In this document: one piece after another, positions 52,195-60,907 of the stretch
Position numbering within the stretch: position 1 is the first letter of the stretch
Layout: each line of letters starts with the position of its first letter
Assembly: GCF_947499265.1 (NCBI RefSeq)
Contig: NZ_CANMNK010000006.1
Coordinates: forward strand, 124,001 to 188,000
Direction: 5' to 3'
Source of the DNA: an uncultured Roseobacter sp.
GTDB lineage: Bacteria > Pseudomonadota > Alphaproteobacteria > Rhodobacterales > Rhodobacteraceae
Length of the DNA: 64,000 nt
Translations under genes and position numbers: made by a program
The notes under the pieces: generated by a model
Databases searched by the model: none
What the model saw: the letters and a program-made list of their open reading frames with translations, nothing else
Told to the model about the DNA's origin: nothing

Positions 52195-53952
52195 ATGTTC
52201 CGTCCACCCATCAAAGGCGCCTTTGCGCGCGTTCTCACTTTCGCCACTCGCCTTTGGATGCGAAGGTGCGGGCTTGTTGCCGCGGTGCTGTTGCTCGTGC
52301 TCACGTCGACAGCAGCCGACGTCATGATCCCTGTGGTAACGGGCCACCTTGTTGCGGCCGTCGCAGAGGCGGCCTCGCCCTGGGGCGCGTTCGGGCTTTT
52401 GCTTGGTCTTGGTGTCATCTCCATCGCGGCCAAGATCCTGAGCTATTTTGCAATCATCGCCCTGACCGTCCCAACCATGCAGGCGGCTGAGGCCGAAGCA
52501 TTTGCGCGCGTTCAGCGCCTGCCGGCTGATTGGCACGCCAACGCTTTCGCCGGATCGACCGTGCGGCAGATCACTCGTGGTGCCTGGGCGCTTGATGACA
52601 TGGCGGACGTGTTGCTGCTGGCGCTCCTGCCATCAACGCTTGTGTTGCTGGGGACCATTGGCACGCTCACCGCCTTCCGATGGGAGGTTGGCCTCGTTGC
52701 TGCTTTGGGTGCCATGATGTTTCTTGGACTTTCTCTGACGCTGACGCTTTTCTGGGTGGCCCCCGCCGCGCGGCTGTCGAACGCGCAGGACAGTCGGGTA
52801 TCCGGTGCGCTCGCCGATGCGATCACGTCGAACGCTGTCGTGCGTGCGCATGCCGGCGAGGCGCGCGAGGATGATCGGCTCGGGCAGGTCTTGTCGAAAT
52901 GGGCGCATCGGACCCGGAGGACATGGCGGCGCGGCACCTGGTCTGGTCTGGCGCAAGACACGTCGCTATGGTGTCTGCGGGCCGCAGTATTGGGCGGCGC
53001 GTTGCTGGCCTTTGCCCGAGGTCTCGCCGGCCCGGGCGAAATTGCCTATGTCGTCGCAGCACTTGGCGTGCTGGATGGCTATCTGCGGCAAATCGGTCAT
53101 CACGTACGGATGCTTCAGAAATCCATAAATGACGCAGAGGAACTGGTGGACCTGATGTCTGCGACACCAGAGAGTGAAGTGGTCCGTCTTCCCGCGCGCG
53201 CATTGTCCTCGCGTGCAGCTGCCTTGGCCTTCGATCATGTTGATTATGGTTACACAGGCGCGCCTACGCCGCTCTTTGCCGATCTGCATGTCGCGATACC
53301 CGCCGGGCAAAAAGTAGGGCTGGTAGGCCGTTCGGGGTCAGGCAAGACGACATTCGTAAAGCTGATCCAGAGGATCCACGAAGTCACGGATGGCGCGATC
53401 ACGCTGGGCGGCGTTGACATCGCGCAGGTACCGCTATCCGAACTGCGCCAGCACATCGCAATAGTGCCGCAGGAGCCAATTCTGTTTCATCGGTCACTTG
53501 CCGAGAATATCGCCTATGCGCGTCCCGGTGCCACCTTGGCGGAAGTGCATGAGGCCGCCGCGCGGGCGGGCGCTGCCGAGTTCATCGCGCAATTGCCGAA
53601 GGGCTACGGCACCGCGGTTGGCGAACGTGGCGTGAAGCTGTCTGGTGGCGAGCGTCAGCGGGTCGCCATCGCACGTGCATTCCTTTCAGATGCGCCTGTT
53701 CTGGTCATGGACGAGGCAACATCTTCGCTCGATTCCGAGGCAGAGGCGCGGGTCGCCGAAGCCGCGGAGCGGTTGATGGAGGGGCGCACGACACTGGTCA
53801 TCGCACACCGTCTGGCGACCGTCGAAAGGATGGACCGCATCCTGGTCTTTGACCGCGGCAGGATTGTGGAGGATGGTACACCCGCCGATCTGATGGCCCG
53901 AAAAAATGGTCTTTATCGTGCGCTGCGTAAACGCCAAACACTAGCAGCCTGA
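52195..53952 (+). CDS. ABC exporter, fused permease-ATPase
   Basis: The product has 585 residues in the half-transporter layout. Six membrane helices (about 1-310) include the exporter coupling segment SNAVVRAHAGEAREDDR. The nucleotide-binding domain has Walker A GRSGSGKTT (about 377-385), the Q-loop in IAIVPQEPILFH, the signature LSGGERQR, Walker B VLVMDEATSSLDSEAEARV and H-loop VIAHRLATV. It is probably a homodimeric exporter of a lipid, peptide or drug; no adaptor or substrate gene is near. ATG 52195 is used; no ribosome site is obvious, consistent with leader-dependent translation. Confidence 0.92.
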   Translation: MFRPPIKGAFARVLTFATRLWMRRCGLVAAVLLLVLTSTAADVMIPVVTGHLVAAVAEAASPWGAFGLLLGLGVISIAAKILSYFAIIALTVPTMQAAEAEAFARVQRLPADWHANAFAGSTVRQITRGAWALDDMADVLLLALLPSTLVLLGTIGTLTAFRWEVGLVAALGAMMFLGLSLTLTLFWVAPAARLSNAQDSRVSGALADAITSNAVVRAHAGEAREDDRLGQVLSKWAHRTRRTWRRGTWSGLAQDTSLWCLRAAVLGGALLAFARGLAGPGEIAYVVAALGVLDGYLRQIGHHVRMLQKSINDAEELVDLMSATPESEVVRLPARALSSRAAALAFDHVDYGYTGAPTPLFADLHVAIPAGQKVGLVGRSGSGKTTFVKLIQRIHEVTDGAITLGGVDIAQVPLSELRQHIAIVPQEPILFHRSLAENIAYARPGATLAEVHEAAARAGAAEFIAQLPKGYGTAVGERGVKLSGGERQRVAIARAFLSDAPVLVMDEATSSLDSEAEARVAEAAERLMEGRTTLVIAHRLATVERMDRILVFDRGRIVEDGTPADLMARKNGLYRALRKRQTLAA

Positions 53953-54400: not shown

Positions 54401-54758
54401 GCCAAGCGGGACGACCGTGGCGAAGAGGAGTATCGCGGGCTAACTCGGGCAATAGACTGAAGCCGCCTGAAACGGGACCTGCCAGCTGTACGTATGACCA
54501 AGCCAAGCGTGGCCGACTTGGCCCATCGCAATCCCGAAGGGCCAATGCGCGCCGTTATACGGCTCCTTGCAGATGATTGATCTGTTTTATCACAGGACTG
54601 CAAGGAGGCTGGGTCCTCGCCTTGCTGTGCATAACACGGTTTGCAGGTTGCGGATCAGACGGCCTTTGCTGATCATACCAGCACGCCCGGCCGCAATCAG
54701 GGGATCTGCTCCTGACCACATGAATTCGTCATCCAATCGAGACCTTCGTCACGCCAAG

Positions 54759-54775
54759 GTTGAATTTTTTTCAAC
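54759..54775. promoter_or_regulatory. Palindrome in the promoter region of the DyP/P450 operon
   Basis: GTTGAA, five T, TTCAAC is a perfect inverted repeat, 87 bp before the first gene. The only other readable DNA from 54401 to 54861 is the recombinase relic. The palindrome may be an operator, but no regulator gene adjoins the operon. Confidence 0.4.
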
Positions 54776-54861
54776 TCTGGGTCACCATCAGTGCATTGAT
54801 ATTTCTGACGACACGGGTGGCTCGACTGGCAGCTGCTCAAATTTGATCAAAGAGGTTTTTT

Positions 54862-55557
54862 ATGTCGAACATTGCAGGCAAGGCATATGCGATGAATGTG
54901 GTGACGCCAAGTAATCCGAAGGTTACCTGGATCAATCGCTTGCTTTTCATGGCCTCGCGCGGCCTACCAAGTAACCTGCTGGGACTGTTGGGTCTGTCGT
55001 TGATCCACTTTGCCCGCTGGGTGATCATCAAGCCCGGCGACTGGCCCAATCTTGGCCAGGGCCAAGAGCGGTTGAAGAACGACTATGTGCTCTTTTGCTC
55101 GAATTTCAACGGCACCTGGGATCAGTACATCGACGCCTTTTCGGACGGGATTCCCAGCGGTCTGGACCTCTTCTGGTACTCATCGATCAAATACCCCAAA
55201 TCGATCCCGATCACGCCGTTCAAGGACTACATCACCTTCAATCAGGTCAACACAGACTATTACTACAACGCCACGCCCGGCTCGGCGCAGCGCGACGTCA
55301 AGACCAGTCTCTTGGTCTATGATCAGGTGCTGAAGCTTGCCGAAATGCATGGGTCCGCCACGCCTGAGGCCTTTGCCGCCGCTTACGAAAAAGCCGCGCT
55401 GAAGATGCAGGCCGGGCTTGGAGACCCGGGGTTTGGCCCCGTCGCGAGCCTCGACACGGAGCGGGCAGAGGTGAACCGCCGGGACTACATCGAGGCCGCG
55501 CAAATGGCCTATGCCAGCCGCCGCGCCACCGCCGGAAAGGAGCAGCCCGATGCCTGA
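54862..55557 (+). CDS. Unrecognised protein, first gene of the DyP/P450 operon
   Basis: The product has 231 residues; I cannot name its family. Residues 35-56 are hydrophobic and could be a membrane-associated helix. The core from 73 to 165 reads DYVLFCSNFNGTWDQYIDAF, FWYSSIKYPKSIPITPFKDYI and NQVNTDYYYNATPGSAQRDV. It looks like alternating strands and helices rich in aromatic residues, perhaps a ferredoxin-like alpha/beta fold as in the chlorite dismutase/DyP/EfeB group, which is inference only. AGAGG precedes the ATG. The end overlaps the next gene by eight bases, which ties it to the operon. Confidence 0.7.
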   Translation: MSNIAGKAYAMNVVTPSNPKVTWINRLLFMASRGLPSNLLGLLGLSLIHFARWVIIKPGDWPNLGQGQERLKNDYVLFCSNFNGTWDQYIDAFSDGIPSGLDLFWYSSIKYPKSIPITPFKDYITFNQVNTDYYYNATPGSAQRDVKTSLLVYDQVLKLAEMHGSATPEAFAAAYEKAALKMQAGLGDPGFGPVASLDTERAEVNRRDYIEAAQMAYASRRATAGKEQPDA

Positions 55558-56596
55558 TCTTGATTCCGGACATATCTTCCTGAACACGATGGCGCCGATC
55601 AAACCCGGGGCGCCAAAGGACAATCCGCAAACCTCCTATGAGCAGCGCGTGCGCATCGCACTGGCCAAGTTCCCGACCGCCAACCAATCGCCCGCAACGG
55701 TGGAGGACCGCTACAACAGCCCCTTTGCGCGCAATCTGCGCAACCATCTGGCGCGGATGTTTGTGCTGAATGACACCATCTACAACGGGCGTATCACGCA
55801 GAACCCCTTGCTCGCCCAGCTGACAGGAAGCAAGCAGAGCGTGCCGCAACCGGTGGACCGGCTGAACGCGCCCTATCTTATTTTCTGTGCGGACGTGGAC
55901 GCGGTGACCGAGGTTGGTGACCCGTTGCCCACCGAACTCAGCCCGCCTCAGGCGCGCGCGGTGCGCGACGTCTATGCCCGCACGCTGTGGGAAACGATGG
56001 AGGAGGAGCTGAGAGACGTCTACTCCAACTGCTACGGTTTCAACGATGTCAATTCTGCGGAGGATTTTGCCAGCTACCTCAATCGCTGCCATGTCGAAAC
56101 GACCATGCCGTTTCACGACTATTATCTGGAGCTGGAGACGGCGAAATTTCATAATCTGCCACTGACACCGCTGCTCGTCGGGGTGCTGGCACCCTTGGCG
56201 TTTGGCCTACTGACGCTGGCGCTATGGCTGTTTGGCGTTGGCACCGTTCCGATGCTGGGGTGGCCAACATTGCCCACCTGGATCCTGTCCATCGGGCTGG
56301 GGATCGTGCTGGCTGTGCTAGCGATCAAATTCGCCATCTCGAACGGTGAAAAACCCCTTGCCCCGGCCAAATACGACGATCTGCCATCGGTGCTGAAAGG
56401 GCTCTATATCCAACAGAAGTTCTCGCAGTTCTTCATCGAAAACCAGGGGCTGCCGCCCGATCAGTTGCATGCAGCATTCGGCACCTTTGTCGCGGAGCAT
56501 GAGCCCGGCAACCTGCACGCCATGACCCAGAAGCCGGGGGTGATTTCCTCTGCCGATCCCACGAATGTCACATTGAAAGACGCGAGCCCGACATGA
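55550..56596 (+). CDS. Unrecognised membrane protein, second gene of the DyP/P450 operon
   Basis: The product has 348 residues from ATG 55550, with GGAAAGGAG upstream. Residues 1-200 are soluble and include APYLIFCADVD (108-117), TLWETMEEELRDVYSNCYGF (145-164) and a conserved-looking histidine pair (CHVETTMPFHDYYLE). Two transmembrane helices follow at about 206-229 and 243-263, then a polar C-terminal tail of about 80 residues. The APYLIFCAD strand echoes NDYVLFCSN in the first gene, so the two may be distant relatives. It overlaps the peroxidase gene as ATGA. It could anchor the enzymes to the membrane. Confidence 0.7.
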   Translation: MPDLDSGHIFLNTMAPIKPGAPKDNPQTSYEQRVRIALAKFPTANQSPATVEDRYNSPFARNLRNHLARMFVLNDTIYNGRITQNPLLAQLTGSKQSVPQPVDRLNAPYLIFCADVDAVTEVGDPLPTELSPPQARAVRDVYARTLWETMEEELRDVYSNCYGFNDVNSAEDFASYLNRCHVETTMPFHDYYLELETAKFHNLPLTPLLVGVLAPLAFGLLTLALWLFGVGTVPMLGWPTLPTWILSIGLGIVLAVLAIKFAISNGEKPLAPAKYDDLPSVLKGLYIQQKFSQFFIENQGLPPDQLHAAFGTFVAEHEPGNLHAMTQKPGVISSADPTNVTLKDASPT

Positions 56597-58275
56597 CACG
56601 TAAATTGAACCTCAACGACATTCAGGGCAATGTCACCCGCGCCTATGGCCGCTATTCATTTCCATTTGCCCGATACATTTTTTTCCATTTCCCTGATCGC
56701 AAGGCGGGTCGCGGCTTTATTGAGAAAATCCGCCAAAAGGTAACCACCGCCGCGCGTTGGCCCGACCAGGCATCGCGCCCGAAATGCACCACAAATATTG
56801 CCCTGACGTTCCCAGGCCTGTTGGCGCTGCAGCTGCCGGTGCGAACGCTTCAGGCGATGCCTGACGAATTTATCGAAGGCATGAAACAGCGGGCCTTTAT
56901 CCTCGGCGATCGGGATCAGACGAAGACCGAGGAGGAAGTTAAGCAGGAGAACTGGGACGCCCATTGGGATCCGATCTGGCAGAAAAGCCGGCAGCCGGGC
57001 ACGCTGGGTTTCGGCAAGGACGACGTGCATGTGATGGTGACGCTGAACGCTCAGTGCGAAAGCCAGGATGTTTTGGACAAGCCAAATGCCGAGCTCGAGG
57101 CCCGGACCAAGTGGGTTCTGGCGACCGCGAAGGACTGTGGTGTCACGCACATCACGGGTGTCGGTAAAGATGGGGATCAACCCTATCAGGAGGCCAGCGC
57201 CGTCTTCGAGGATGTGGGTGGGACCATGCGGCCCACGCCGAAGGAGCACTTCGGTTTCACGGACGGCATCGGGAACCCGGTCTTCGAGGGGCAATTGCCG
57301 CTGGAAGTCGAGGCTGATGCGGTGATCGGTCGCGGCAAGCTGATGGGTGATGGCTGGGAACCTCTGGCGACGGGGGAGTTCATCCTTGGTCACCCCGATG
57401 AGAGCCAGGAACTGCCCCCGACGGCACGACCGCCCGAGTTCATGCACAACGGCACCTTCTTTGCCTTCCGCAAGCTGCACGAGAATGTCGGCAGCTTTGA
57501 CACGGTGGTCAAGGAAGAGGCCGAGCGCTACGCCGCCGTCATGGAAATCTCCGTCGAGGAGGCTGTCGAGACGATCCGCGCCAAGATGTGCGGGCGCTGG
57601 TCTGACGGTGTGCCCCTGTCGAAGGTTCCGACCTATCAGGAATGGATCGCCTTTGGCACGAGCAAGGGGTGGCGCGGTGAAGGCGTGGACCCCAAGACGG
57701 GGTATCTGAAAAACCTTGCCTATGTCGCGTCACCAGAGGCGCGCGACTTCCGCTACGCCGACGATATGGCGGGCCTGAAATGCCCGGGCGGCGCCCATAT
57801 GCGGCGGATGAACACCCGCGACTACCTCGACCCCTTGAACGAGACCGGGGTGTCGGACAGTGGCGCGCAGCCGGAGAATGCCAAGGCCACCAGCGCCCTG
57901 AACAAGCGCCGGCGCATTCTGCGCCGCGGGCTGCCCTATGGGCCATCGGATAACAGCAAAAAGACGGACAGCACCGAGCAGGGCGTGATCATGATCATCA
58001 TGGGTGCCAGCCTCTTCCGCCAGTTCGAGTTCGTGCAGCAGCAATGGATCCAATACGGGCTGGATTTCCACCAGGGCAACAACACTTGCCCCTTGCTTGG
58101 CAATCACGAGGAGCACAAGCGGTTCACGATCCCGTCGGACCCGAAGTCAGGCAAACCGCCCTATGTCATGAGCAAGCTCAAGACCTTTGTTGAATGTCGC
58201 GGTGGGGATTACTTTTTTGCTCCGTCGATGACCGCGTTGCGGATGATGGCGATGGGCATCGTCGATCCGACCTGA
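56593..58275 (+). CDS. DyP-type heme peroxidase
   Basis: The product has 560 residues of the dye-decolorizing peroxidase superfamily, longer than the bacterial A/B forms and nearer to the large C/D (fungal and cyanobacterial) forms. It begins with the DIQGNVTRAYG motif. The GxxDG motif is GFTDG (221-225) with D224 as the acid that helps cleave hydrogen peroxide. The heme-ligating histidine is H402 in CPGGAHMRRMNTRD, and the distal arginine is near R444 in RRRILRRGLPYGP. There is no Tat or Sec signal and no encapsulin tail, so it works in the cytoplasm or at the inner face of the membrane. The P450 gene follows 30 bp on. Confidence 0.93.
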   Translation: MTRKLNLNDIQGNVTRAYGRYSFPFARYIFFHFPDRKAGRGFIEKIRQKVTTAARWPDQASRPKCTTNIALTFPGLLALQLPVRTLQAMPDEFIEGMKQRAFILGDRDQTKTEEEVKQENWDAHWDPIWQKSRQPGTLGFGKDDVHVMVTLNAQCESQDVLDKPNAELEARTKWVLATAKDCGVTHITGVGKDGDQPYQEASAVFEDVGGTMRPTPKEHFGFTDGIGNPVFEGQLPLEVEADAVIGRGKLMGDGWEPLATGEFILGHPDESQELPPTARPPEFMHNGTFFAFRKLHENVGSFDTVVKEEAERYAAVMEISVEEAVETIRAKMCGRWSDGVPLSKVPTYQEWIAFGTSKGWRGEGVDPKTGYLKNLAYVASPEARDFRYADDMAGLKCPGGAHMRRMNTRDYLDPLNETGVSDSGAQPENAKATSALNKRRRILRRGLPYGPSDNSKKTDSTEQGVIMIIMGASLFRQFEFVQQQWIQYGLDFHQGNNTCPLLGNHEEHKRFTIPSDPKSGKPPYVMSKLKTFVECRGGDYFFAPSMTALRMMAMGIVDPT

Positions 58276-58305
58276 CCCCAACTCAAGACAAGTCGAGGTG
58301 TCGCC

Positions 58306-59649
58306 ATGATTACCGCCGTCCTCAATATCTTCGTCTCGATCTACCAGCGCCTCGCGGTCTGGGGCGAGGCGCTCTTTGCGCTGGTCAGTCTCCTAATTGG
58401 CGGCATCCGTGCGCTGTTCGCCGGAGGGGTGGGGAGTTTCTTTCTCAAACCCGCCACACAGCGCCAAGTGTTTGCGCTGCTCAGAGGGGTTTGGCCAAAC
58501 ATCTCGCTCAGCCGGGTTGTCATGAAATGCTATGACAACACCGGCACCGCGCTCGTCACCCGGCGCGCCGATGTGGTGGATGTGCTGAACAGAAATGCCG
58601 ATTTCGAGGTGGTCTACGGCCCCCGTATGCGGGAGCTGACCGAGGGGGACAATTTCTTTCTCGGGATGCAGCCCGGTTGGGACTACACGCGGGATACCTC
58701 CGCGATGCGCCTTGCCGCGCGGATGACCGATGTCGCGGAGATCGTTCAGCCACGCGCGGCGGAGCTTGCCACCAAGATCGTCGCAGACAGCGGCGGCAGC
58801 ATCGATATCGTTCCCACACTCACGCTCGAAGTGCCCTGGGACATGACGGACACCTATTTTGGCTGCGGTGGTGAACGTCAGAGCATGCAAGACTGGACGA
58901 CGACGCTGTTCTGGTACCTGTTCCAGGATCTCGGCGCCGATGCCGAAAAAGGGGCCGTTGCATTGCAGCAGGCGGCGGAACTGCGGACCTACCTCGATGC
59001 CCATATCGCAGACCGCAAGGCCAACCCGACGGCAGCGCCCGATATCCTGAACCGGTGTCTGGCGCTGCAATCATCGGACACGCCCGGGATGAGCGATCTG
59101 GGCATCCGCAACAATCTCCTGGGCTTGCTGATCGGGGCGATTCCGACAATCTCCAAGGCAAGCTGCCTCGTGCTGGATGAACTGCTCAACCGCCCAGACG
59201 CGCTCGCCTCGGCGCAGCGCGCGGCGCAGGAGGATGACGATGCCCTGCTGGCCCAGCATTGCTGGGAAGCGTTGCGTTTCAACCCGTTCAACCCCGTGAT
59301 TTACCGTAGGGCAACTCATGACACGGAAGTGGCGACCTCGACGCTGCGCCGCGTTAAAATCCGCAAGGGCCAGATCGTCTTTGCCGCCAACTTCTCGGCC
59401 TGTTTTGACCGCTTCGAGATCCCTGAGCCCACCAGCTTCCGCACTGATCGGCCATGGGAAACCTACATGATCTGGGGGTATGGCATGCACAACTGTTTTG
59501 GCGATCAGATCAATCAGGCGGTGATCCCTGCGATCCTCAAACCGTTGCTGAAACAGAAAAACCTGCGACGGGCGAGCGGTGAGGCTGGCCAGATCAGCAC
59601 CGGAGACCTCGGGTTTCCGGCACATTTTCACCTCGAATTCGATGCGTAA
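58306..59649 (+). CDS. Cytochrome P450 with atypical I-helix and N-terminal hydrophobic segment
   Basis: The product has 447 residues. The heme site is WGYGMHNCFGDQI with C397, and the ExxR pair is E321/R324 in EALRFNPFNP. The I-helix reads LLIGAIPTISKAS (275-286) and lacks the acidic-residue/threonine pair that most oxygen-activating P450s use. Such helices are known in P450s that rearrange peroxides (CYP74, CYP8) or use hydrogen peroxide. The first 45 residues are unusually hydrophobic for a bacterial P450, suggesting membrane contact. No ferredoxin or reductase gene is in the operon, in line with oxygen-independent chemistry. The GST gene follows 11 bp later. Confidence 0.9.
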   Translation: MITAVLNIFVSIYQRLAVWGEALFALVSLLIGGIRALFAGGVGSFFLKPATQRQVFALLRGVWPNISLSRVVMKCYDNTGTALVTRRADVVDVLNRNADFEVVYGPRMRELTEGDNFFLGMQPGWDYTRDTSAMRLAARMTDVAEIVQPRAAELATKIVADSGGSIDIVPTLTLEVPWDMTDTYFGCGGERQSMQDWTTTLFWYLFQDLGADAEKGAVALQQAAELRTYLDAHIADRKANPTAAPDILNRCLALQSSDTPGMSDLGIRNNLLGLLIGAIPTISKASCLVLDELLNRPDALASAQRAAQEDDDALLAQHCWEALRFNPFNPVIYRRATHDTEVATSTLRRVKIRKGQIVFAANFSACFDRFEIPEPTSFRTDRPWETYMIWGYGMHNCFGDQINQAVIPAILKPLLKQKNLRRASGEAGQISTGDLGFPAHFHLEFDA

Positions 59650-59660
59650 AAGGCAGCGGC

Positions 59661-60452
59661 ATGGCAGGCAAACCTCTCCTCGTAACGCTTCTGCCATCGT
59701 CCGGGGTGGATCTTGGCCGCTGGCTCCTGGCCCATTACGGTGTCGACTATACAGAGCGGCCGCATGCGCCGATTTTTCATGTGCTGGCGCTGAAATCCTG
59801 GGGGCAGGGCAAGGATGACTATCCGCTCTTCGTGCATTCAGACGGCAAAACCAAGACCGCCGGTTGTCTGCAGATCGCCGAACTCTTTGATCCGGACGCT
59901 CCGGCGGAATACCGGCTTTTGCCCGATGCCAAGGCCGAGCCGAACCACGCGCAGCAGGTCGATGACATTGTCAAATATGCCTATTGGACGCTGGGTGACG
60001 ATGTGGTGAATTGGTCGTATTGGAACTTCCTCAAGCACAAATCGGTTGTCTGGCCCTCGCTCACGACAAGTGTGCCCTGGTACGAAAAGCTCACCTGCGC
60101 TTTGGCCTTCGGGACCATTCGCACGTTGATGTACAAGGGGCTCAAGCTGAACCAAGGCGTGGCGGATACGTCTTTGCAGAGCATCTATGACGGCTGGGAC
60201 AAATTCGATGTCATGCTGGCCGACGGGCGCCGTTATCTGGTGGGGGACCGGCTGTCTTATGCAGATCTGGCGACCGCGGCGGCTTTGGGCCCGATGATCC
60301 TGGCGCAGGGATATCATGGGATGCTGCCCAATGAGGCCAAGTGCCCCGTTTTCATGCAGCAGGTCTATAAGGAGCTGCGCCAACGCCCGACAGGTCTCTT
60401 TATCCAGCGCATCTACGATACCCACCGTCCCGCGCAACTGCTCTGCATTTAG
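59661..60452 (+). CDS. Glutathione S-transferase-like protein
   Basis: The product has 263 residues with a thioredoxin-like N-terminal domain (KPLLVTLLPSSGVDLGRWLLAHYGVDY) and an all-helical C-terminal domain containing the GST capping motif region RRYLVGDRLSYADLATAAALGPM. A serine pair S13-S14 is the likely glutathione-activating position. The role could be conjugation or isomerisation of the electrophilic product of the peroxidase/P450 pair. It is the last gene of the operon; a strong hairpin follows. Confidence 0.85.
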   Translation: MAGKPLLVTLLPSSGVDLGRWLLAHYGVDYTERPHAPIFHVLALKSWGQGKDDYPLFVHSDGKTKTAGCLQIAELFDPDAPAEYRLLPDAKAEPNHAQQVDDIVKYAYWTLGDDVVNWSYWNFLKHKSVVWPSLTTSVPWYEKLTCALAFGTIRTLMYKGLKLNQGVADTSLQSIYDGWDKFDVMLADGRRYLVGDRLSYADLATAAALGPMILAQGYHGMLPNEAKCPVFMQQVYKELRQRPTGLFIQRIYDTHRPAQLLCI

Positions 60453-60502: not shown

Positions 60503-60907
60503 GACGCAGTGGTCTCAGAAAGATGGACAGTTGGTCAAGCCTTGTCCCAAAACCGCCAGTGACCTGTCCCATATTCCGCCCTTGGGACTGGTGATTTGGG
60601 GCAGATCACTGGCCTCAGGGAAAAAGACGGTTGCACACCGCTCCGACGGCTCGGGAACATGATGTTCCGAAGCTCCCGGCCTTCACCCAACCGGCTGAAG
60701 GAGATCATGGAGAAGGGCACCCGCTAGTCCGTCGCTCCGAAGGAGCGAGCTTATTTCGAGTATGAATGACGGTTTGACGGAGCTCTTCTGCGGTCTGCCT
60801 CTCATGACATTGCTATCTCAATACACTGCCGGTCAGCGGGACCCTGCGCTTTGGGAATGTCAGGCTTTCCCTTTCAGCGAATGCACGTATTCGCCTGCCG
60901 GGATCGT
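60503..60907. other. Degenerate DNA, no intact gene
   Basis: Only short frames without ribosome sites are seen. A perfect hairpin TCGCTCC-GAA-GGAGCGA lies at 60732-60748, followed by GCTTATTT on the plus strand, and may be a terminator of something now lost. Confidence 0.35.

Follow-up and report, generated by a model that had tools for sequence, protein, structure and literature searches.

What does a DyP-type peroxidase do in an operon that it shares with a cytochrome P450, a glutathione S-transferase (GST)-like protein and two proteins of no known family? The operon lies in a 64,000-nucleotide stretch of DNA (the window, taken from contig 6 of the 28 contigs of a 5.2 Mb genome) from an uncultured Roseobacter sp., where five ATG-to-stop genes follow one another on the + strand between positions 54862 and 60452, the first three overlapping by 8 and 4 bp and the last three standing 30 and 11 bp apart. 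An earlier note, made from the sequence alone, had described a tightly packed, single-strand operon of five genes with a palindrome before it and a hairpin after it, and the coordinates, overlaps and gaps agree with that description, as do the two flanking elements, both of which were located (Table 1). Judged by gene neighbourhoods across genomes, the products of genes 1 and 2 (P1 and P2) and a particular DyP subtype are the conserved core, a P450 that has lost its I-helix acid is the usual further enzyme, and the GST is an optional fifth part. We tentatively propose that these genes encode a membrane-tethered relay of two haem proteins, DyP and P450, acting on a (hydro)peroxide, a reading that falls somewhat short of probable.

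A gene-1 alignment scan of genome contigs from 84,980 species confirmed 256 relatives, of which the best 80 were kept; this selection favours close kin, and some of its contigs recur in our other sets (e.g., L033 and L015). Across these 80 loci, P2 was found in 79 and the DyP in 76, the loci that lack them (L081, L088, L097 and L102) being cut off by a contig end inside P1 or P2 or directly behind one of them, and all matching pieces (321/321) lay on the strand of gene 1. The DyP was complete in 74 loci, with a P450 next in 53, absent in 18 and 3 loci cut short; taking at least 1.5 kb after the DyP as room for a P450, it follows in 53/71 loci with room, at a distance of -3 to 187 bp between the aligned pieces. 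Because the remaining 18 loci with room lack a P450, the P1/P2/DyP core must be able to act without one, and no common replacement gene was seen by eye in these 18. In the 53 P450-bearing loci, the GST came next in 27 and did not in 23, and 3 were cut short. No gene outside the operon was common to more than 7 of the 80 loci in blastp clusters (E 1e-15 over at least half of the shorter frame, a setting at which scattered families would be missed), as judged by coordinates from the top 60 clusters, which were unannotated. Complete open frames numbered 72 for P1, 72 for P2, 73 for DyP, 52 for P450 and 27 for GST, and a length filter left 71, 71, 73, 51 and 26, respectively. The hosts include Alpha-, Beta- and Gammaproteobacteria, and an acidobacterial plasmid carries the P1-P2-DyP core without P450 or GST. 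The source genome itself has one match site for the window DyP and one for gene 1. In its family, gene 1 occurs in 12 of 198 genomes (own included, two of them weak); at the ten strong loci outside its own, from nine genomes, P1, P2 and DyP stand together in 10/10, a close P450 follows the core in 7/10 and a GST is present in 4/10, with a distant P450 lying in front in L019. The earlier note had held that the operon would be a chance assembly if homologues of its two unassigned proteins were never found beside DyP or P450 genes elsewhere; they are regularly found there (P2 in 79/80, DyP in 76/80, P450 in 53/71). Its view of the five genes as a coherent unit stands for P1, P2 and DyP, which are constant, and has to be loosened for P450 and GST, which are frequent but optional.

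The core extends well beyond close relatives. Profile searches matched P1 in 6 of 289 genomes of the class and 16 of 398 of the phylum, own genome included in each, and in 19/19 other class or phylum genomes with a P1 match the DyP lies beside it or is fused to it. In the reverse test, this DyP type was found in 29 of 398 genomes (E <= 1e-10), and a P1-like partner in 27 of these 29, the broad P1 model having been partly trained on distant partners already known to lie beside a DyP. The partner-bearing genomes are the source genome, G023, G304, G448, G527, G530, G543, G547, G571, G580, G634, G655, G658, G661, G693, G699, G705, G717, G728, G743, G745, G750, G787, G804, G820, G827 and G830; in G820 (L192) about 0.9 kb separates the partner from the DyP. 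The profile search found no P1-like partner in G630 or G706, both of which were kept in the count; their DyPs match PF21105 strongly, an observation made post hoc, and may therefore represent another DyP subtype.

In nine loci, moreover, P450, P1-like region and DyP are encoded in one frame of 1410-1643 codons. Three of these fusions are on plasmids, in Novosphingobium aromaticivorans (WP_011907039, 1443 residues), Pararhizobium qamdonense (WP_276121424, 1423 residues) and Sulfitobacter sp. SK025 (WP_114865663, 1620 residues), and run from P450 through a part with hydrophobic segments and a P1-like part to the DyP, a layout shared by six further genomes (L139, L140, L196, L197, L201 and L203). 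The nine fused rows form one group (support 100/99) in a 41-row P450 tree with several long branches, from which only the starred groupings of fused rows and of Glu rows were used. A second P1-type domain, the counterpart of P2, was significant only in L203 (5.9e-6), was not significant in L197 (0.036) or L201 (0.96) and was not seen in the others; an alignment of the fused frames hints at one by eye. In Rhizobium sophoriradicis, a P1-like part and DyP form one 974-residue protein without P450, and L142 has the reverse order, DyP then P450, in a 1014-residue frame preceded by a P1-like gene, which points to a second, separate fusion event. Since several bacteria encode P450, P1-type region and DyP as a single polypeptide, we take them to serve one process, in which the three parts probably touch. 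By sample family, the single-frame P450-to-DyP fusions fall into f160 (L139, L140, L197 and L203), f159 (L201) and f13 (L196).

The P450 (PF00067, E 1.3e-12, 47.7 bits against a cut-off of 22.8) has a hydrophobic N-terminus and keeps its ExxR motif (EALR) and its Cys loop (GYGMHNCFG) intact; ExxR and GxHxC are present in 51/51 operon homologues. At the I-helix acid position, however, the window protein and all 51 homologues carry a proline, and the acid-alcohol pair typical of electron-driven P450 monooxygenases is absent from the window I-helix. The usual pair is likewise lacking in CYP74 and CYP152. Among 24 other DyP-linked P450s, either fused to a DyP or lying up to about 1.3 kb before or after one, the acid is lost in 22: 20 have Pro, L142 has Gly and L200 has Ala, the alignment being poor at the latter two rows. 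By comparison, five P450 relatives without a nearby DyP (L111, L113, L114, L158 and L160) keep Glu in 5/5. These five have other peroxidase genes for company: in L111 it is an An_peroxidase gene (PF03098, E 1.5e-44), which the P450 gene overlaps. In L113 and L158 the gene directly upstream of the P450 is of the di-haem CytoC_perox type (NF040606) and has Rox-like parts, and such a gene lies near the P450 in L114, with a regulator gene between them; a similar gene was recognized by eye in L160. The branch to which the window P450 belongs occurs, in other words, beside three unrelated haem peroxidase families. The earlier note had called this P450 atypical and had pointed out that no redox-partner gene is included in the operon; the proline gives substance to the former, and no redox-partner gene was found among the conserved operon neighbours of the 80 loci either, the rest of the genome not having been searched. 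Because the acid is lost, no redox partner is a conserved neighbour and the branch lies beside three peroxidase families, we propose that the P450 acts on a peroxide. Among solved structures, it is closest to other P450s of bacterial origin (best E 3.1e-12). As side observations, the Glu-Thr pair is intact in the P450s of L113, L114, L158 and L160, whose genes adjoin or lie close to those of Rox-like di-haem peroxidases, and about 3 kb upstream of the L113 peroxidase gene there is one annotated as an oleate hydratase.

Gene 3 is DyP-like by TIGR01413 (E 3.7e-23, 82.3 bits against a model cut-off of 100.5), PF20628 (18.7 bits, cut-off 20) and PF21105 (19.5 bits, cut-off 27.5), and with scores under the cut-offs of the curated models it is, by this measure, a divergent subtype. 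DyPs are marked by a GXXDG motif, a proximal-His motif and a distal-Arg motif. The window protein has all three (GFTDG, GAHMRR and LRRGLPYG), and among 73 homologues the motif Asp is kept in 73/73 and the His and Arg motifs in 73/73, with GXXDA in place of GXXDG in 12. Its best PDB sequence match (E 1.7e-38) is 8re3/8re2, the Deinococcus radiodurans DyP (DR_A0145) and its M190G form (PMC10820274). An annotated plasmid record of D. radiodurans has a DyP gene that agrees with both entries over their full reach, differing from 8re3 at two residues, one of them the engineered M190G, and a P1-like gene stands directly in front of it with one base between. According to PMC10820274, the recombinant enzyme alone is inactive at physiological pH, its control by other proteins is offered as a speculation, and it is still unclear what DyP peroxidases do in the cell and on which substrates; in the text consulted, the words "operon", "adjacent" and "partner" have no occurrence. 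Alike in sequence and in its P1-like neighbour, the D. radiodurans locus differs in that a "catalase family" gene follows and no P2 or P450 occurs within the 12.6 kb examined, and its enzyme has GXXDM where GXXDG is expected (PMC10820274). As a side observation, a catalase-family gene, a P1-like gene and a DyP without P2 or P450 also occur together in L115 (4853-8053), L116 (5950-9183) and L025 (3380-6741), the catalase-family label coming from annotation in L115 and L116 and by eye in L025, with Pfam Catalase under cut-off. In L195 (7499-8716) the DyP frame has 911 codons, the last 400 or so residues without a Pfam match, and in L021 (7267-8912) the DyP is in three pieces in different frames next to open P1, P2 and P450 genes, through decay or sequencing error.

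P1 and P2 gave nothing above cut-off in the Pfam copy used or in NCBIfam and have no significant PDB relative; P1 had no match among PDB sequences up to E 5, and P2 reached Apo-CII at E 0.02, under cut-off. P1, which carries IHFARW ... SNFNGTWDQYIDAF motifs, has the strongest conservation in the operon (mean pairwise identity at 40 loci with all four genes: P1 0.686, P2 0.474, DyP 0.571, P450 0.573) and adjoins or is fused to DyP in every locus with room. By profile comparison, the two proteins are homologous: hhalign aligned P1 with six P2 forms lacking the transmembrane insert over 197 columns (prob 99.3, E 4.7e-20) and only weakly with the full-length P2 set that includes it (prob 34, E 4.2e-4), and the P1 model matched insert-less P2 genes in L131 (1.9e-11), Granulicella (L014, 2.9e-15) and L135 (1.0e-14). 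The earlier note had given one of its two unassigned proteins two membrane spans, and both hydropathy and modelling of P2 bear this out, with strongly hydrophobic stretches at residues 202-238 and 238-267 (Kyte-Doolittle peaks 2.26 and 2.57). It had also suggested predicting the structures of both proteins, which succeeded for one of them: besides the window sequences, 62 of 71 P1 rows and 58 of 71 P2 rows served as input, and AF2 gave a confident model for P2 (pLDDT 91.2, pTM 0.83) but a poor one for P1 (pLDDT 69.8). The P2 model has a strand-helix-strand-strand-helix arrangement plus a helical hairpin at 205-266, whose helices (205-227 and 240-266) coincide with the hydrophobic stretches, so that the membrane-anchored component implied by the note's idea of a membrane association is predicted to be present. 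Foldseek found no PDB match at E <= 0.001 for the P2 model; it found none for P1 either, which carries little weight because the P1 model is poor.

Gene 5 has a GST C-terminal domain (PF13410, E 1.2e-5, 25.8 bits against 24.9), and no N-terminal GST domain model matched it, with PSS/PST...RW and HAP[IV]FH stretches conserved, by eye, in its N-terminal part. Two loci have a tandem GST pair after the P450 (L048, 12840-14384; L073, 11848-13419).

In the mechanism that we propose, the P2 membrane hairpin, with P1 and P2, would anchor both haem enzymes to the cytoplasmic membrane, and P1 and P2 would set the activity of the DyP or its access to substrate. The DyP would turn a lipid-like substrate into a peroxide by peroxidase- or oxygenase-type chemistry, or handle a membrane peroxide; oxygenase-like work is thinkable because the oxidation of beta-carotene by a class V DyP appears to proceed without H2O2 (PMC8197335). 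The P450 would then act on the O-O bond of that peroxide, as an isomerase, lyase or peroxygenase rather than by electron-driven O2 activation, and the GST may isomerise or conjugate the electrophilic product. The peroxide or oxylipin-like product that the earlier note had guessed at finds indirect support in the lost I-helix acid and in P450 relatives near animal-type or Rox-like di-haem peroxidases. More speculative than the relay is the bolder claim of a new haem machine, in which a DyP subtype that is not made to act by itself but with dedicated, often membrane-bound P1/P2 proteins would hand a peroxide directly to a P450 that does not activate oxygen.

Several observations weigh against such a relay. 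A strict coupling between DyP linkage and acid loss is broken by L141 and L144, whose DyP-linked P450s retain Asp; the 24 and five P450s compared include near-copies (L140/L203, L134/L204 and L113/L160, the last pair identical), and six of 13 plasmid records with P450 relatives were examined. The P450 is missing from a quarter of the loci with room (18/71), no lipid gene stood out among the unannotated neighbour clusters of the 80 loci, and the P1 model is poor. The possibility that P1 and P2 share DyP's own fold was unsupported by hhalign or Foldseek (hhalign against DyP domains was not significant: P1 prob 0.4, P2 0.1, fused middle part 11). Finally, the DyP might merely remove H2O2.

The lost acid, the lack of a redox-partner gene among the conserved neighbours and the intact DyP motif residues would also suit an H2O2-driven P450 peroxygenase working on a hydrophobic substrate, with the DyP consuming excess H2O2 or oxidising the product by one electron and P1/P2 serving only as anchors. 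We consider this rather unlikely, as it leaves unexplained both the high conservation of P1 and the constancy of the DyP-P1/P2 core where the P450 is missing. A role in detoxifying a membrane-soluble xenobiotic or a lipid hydroperoxide, in which DyP and P450 would degrade peroxides and the GST conjugate electrophiles, draws on the GST adjoining the P450 in 27/50 loci with room and on the P1-like/DyP pairs by "catalase family" genes (Pfam Catalase under cut-off) in Sphingomonas and Deinococcus; it is unlikely, given that the GST is absent in 23/50 and that, in our judgement, strict partner conservation and fusion exceed what general detoxification needs. P1 and P2 could instead be factors that mature or activate this DyP subtype (haem loading, distal-site opening) with the P450 as a client of the same factors, as the partner in 27/29 genomes, the P1-like gene one base from the D. 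radiodurans DyP gene and the inactivity of that DyP alone at physiological pH, with governing proteins speculated upon (PMC10820274), would allow; a permanent P450-DyP fusion, however, is more what one expects of a structural part than of a transient chaperone, and we regard this as very unlikely. Chance assembly of unrelated genes, for which only the patchy distribution in family and phylum genomes speaks, is vanishingly improbable and is ruled out by conserved order and fusions.

If the bolder claim of a haem machine is true, it would be a bacterial, cyclooxygenase-independent passage from peroxidase to P450, built on a DyP, and would place this DyP subtype, and with it the D. radiodurans enzyme, in a physiological context. 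P1 and P2 are a partner family for this DyP type, present in 27 of the 29 sampled genomes that carry it, with a P1-like member directly next to the D. radiodurans DyP gene itself, and the conserved gene set offers a handle on the cellular role of this kind of peroxidase. Proline at the I-helix acid position may serve as a sequence mark for P450s that probably use a peroxide.

Table 1. Positions in the window of the operon genes, the P2 membrane spans and the flanking elements.
Feature	Position	Strand	Details
Gene 1 (P1), DyP partner protein without known family	54862..55557	+	231 aa; Pfam/NCBIfam/PDB searches
Gene 2 (P2), P1 homologue with inserted two-helix membrane hairpin	55550..56596	+	348 aa; hhalign, AF2
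P2 two membrane spans, residues about 202-267	56153..56350	+	Kyte-Doolittle, model helices
Gene 3, DyP-type peroxidase	56593..58275	+	560 aa; GFTDG, GAHMRR, LRRGLPYG motifs
Gene 4, cytochrome P450	58306..59649	+	447 aa; EALR, GYGMHNCFG; I-helix GAIPTIS
Gene 5, GST-like protein	59661..60452	+	263 aa; GST C-terminal domain
Imperfect palindrome, GTTGAA-N5-TTCAAC core, 11-nt arms, 82%	54754..54780	.	82-108 bp before gene 1
Imperfect hairpin, 20-nt arms, 85%, without T tail	60555..60613	.	3' of gene 5

The closest relative, L027, has a similar upstream symmetry by eye only, and a conserved promoter palindrome was rejected, the most frequent upstream 8-mer occurring in only 6 of 71 sequences or fewer. 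A terminator-like site lies at 60732-60748, beyond the gene-5 hairpin; because the counts in the region are near those of shuffled sequence (terminator-like sites 8 against 5.8 +/- 2.2, promoter-like 1 against 2.5), such sites are not above chance. A gene for a 585-residue protein that looks by eye like an ABC exporter lies on the same strand at 52195-53952, about 0.9 kb before the operon. PADLOC models of known anti-phage defence systems gave 0 matches to the five proteins at E 0.01. A lipoxygenase search of the source genome gave no match and was uninformative, since control genomes gave none either.

How does the system compare with those already described? The enzymes belong to known superfamilies and the pairing of a peroxidase with a P450 is of a known kind. 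The earlier note had claimed that no system with this gene set is described; likewise, we recognized no description of a DyP-P450 operon or fusion in the full-text literature searched, which lacks most subscription journals. DyPs are known in EfeUOB iron uptake, in DtpA copper oxidation and as encapsulin cargo (PMC8197335), settings that share with ours the presence of dedicated genetic partners but in which the partners are other than P1/P2, P450 and GST; "P450" has no occurrence in the main text of that review, and neither an encapsulin shell nor EfeU/EfeO is a conserved neighbour here (none in more than 7/80 loci, no model search having been aimed at them). The oleate-diol synthase of Pseudomonas aeruginosa (PA2077/PA2078) likewise consists of enzymes from peroxidase families, which produce fatty-acid hydroperoxides and convert them, and because PA2077, the fatty-acid 10S-dioxygenase, groups with RoxA (PMC4496055), the Rox-like proteins near relatives of the window P450 are suggestive; unlike the window operon, that of PA2077/PA2078 has no DyP, P1/P2 or P450 described in the accessible text of the same paper. 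P450s that act on peroxides without a redox partner include plant AOS, PGIS and TXS (PMC13049297) and the CYP152 peroxygenases (PMC3937522), whereas the window P450 has its nearest solved relatives among other P450s of bacteria. In the fungal linoleate diol synthases (CYP6001-CYP6005) and oomycete CYP5619 (PMC13049297, PMC4486971), a haem peroxidase/dioxygenase is fused to a P450 that handles its hydroperoxide, in CYP5619 even with the P450 at the N-terminus as in the window-type fusions. These proteins, however, use an animal-peroxidase/cyclooxygenase-type domain, to which the DyP superfamily is unrelated (PMC4420034), PF03098 (An_peroxidase) matched none of the five window proteins, and the window system has two extra partner proteins and a predicted membrane hairpin. 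We infer by analogy that it is functionally like the fungal dioxygenase-P450 fusions, yet not a member of that group.

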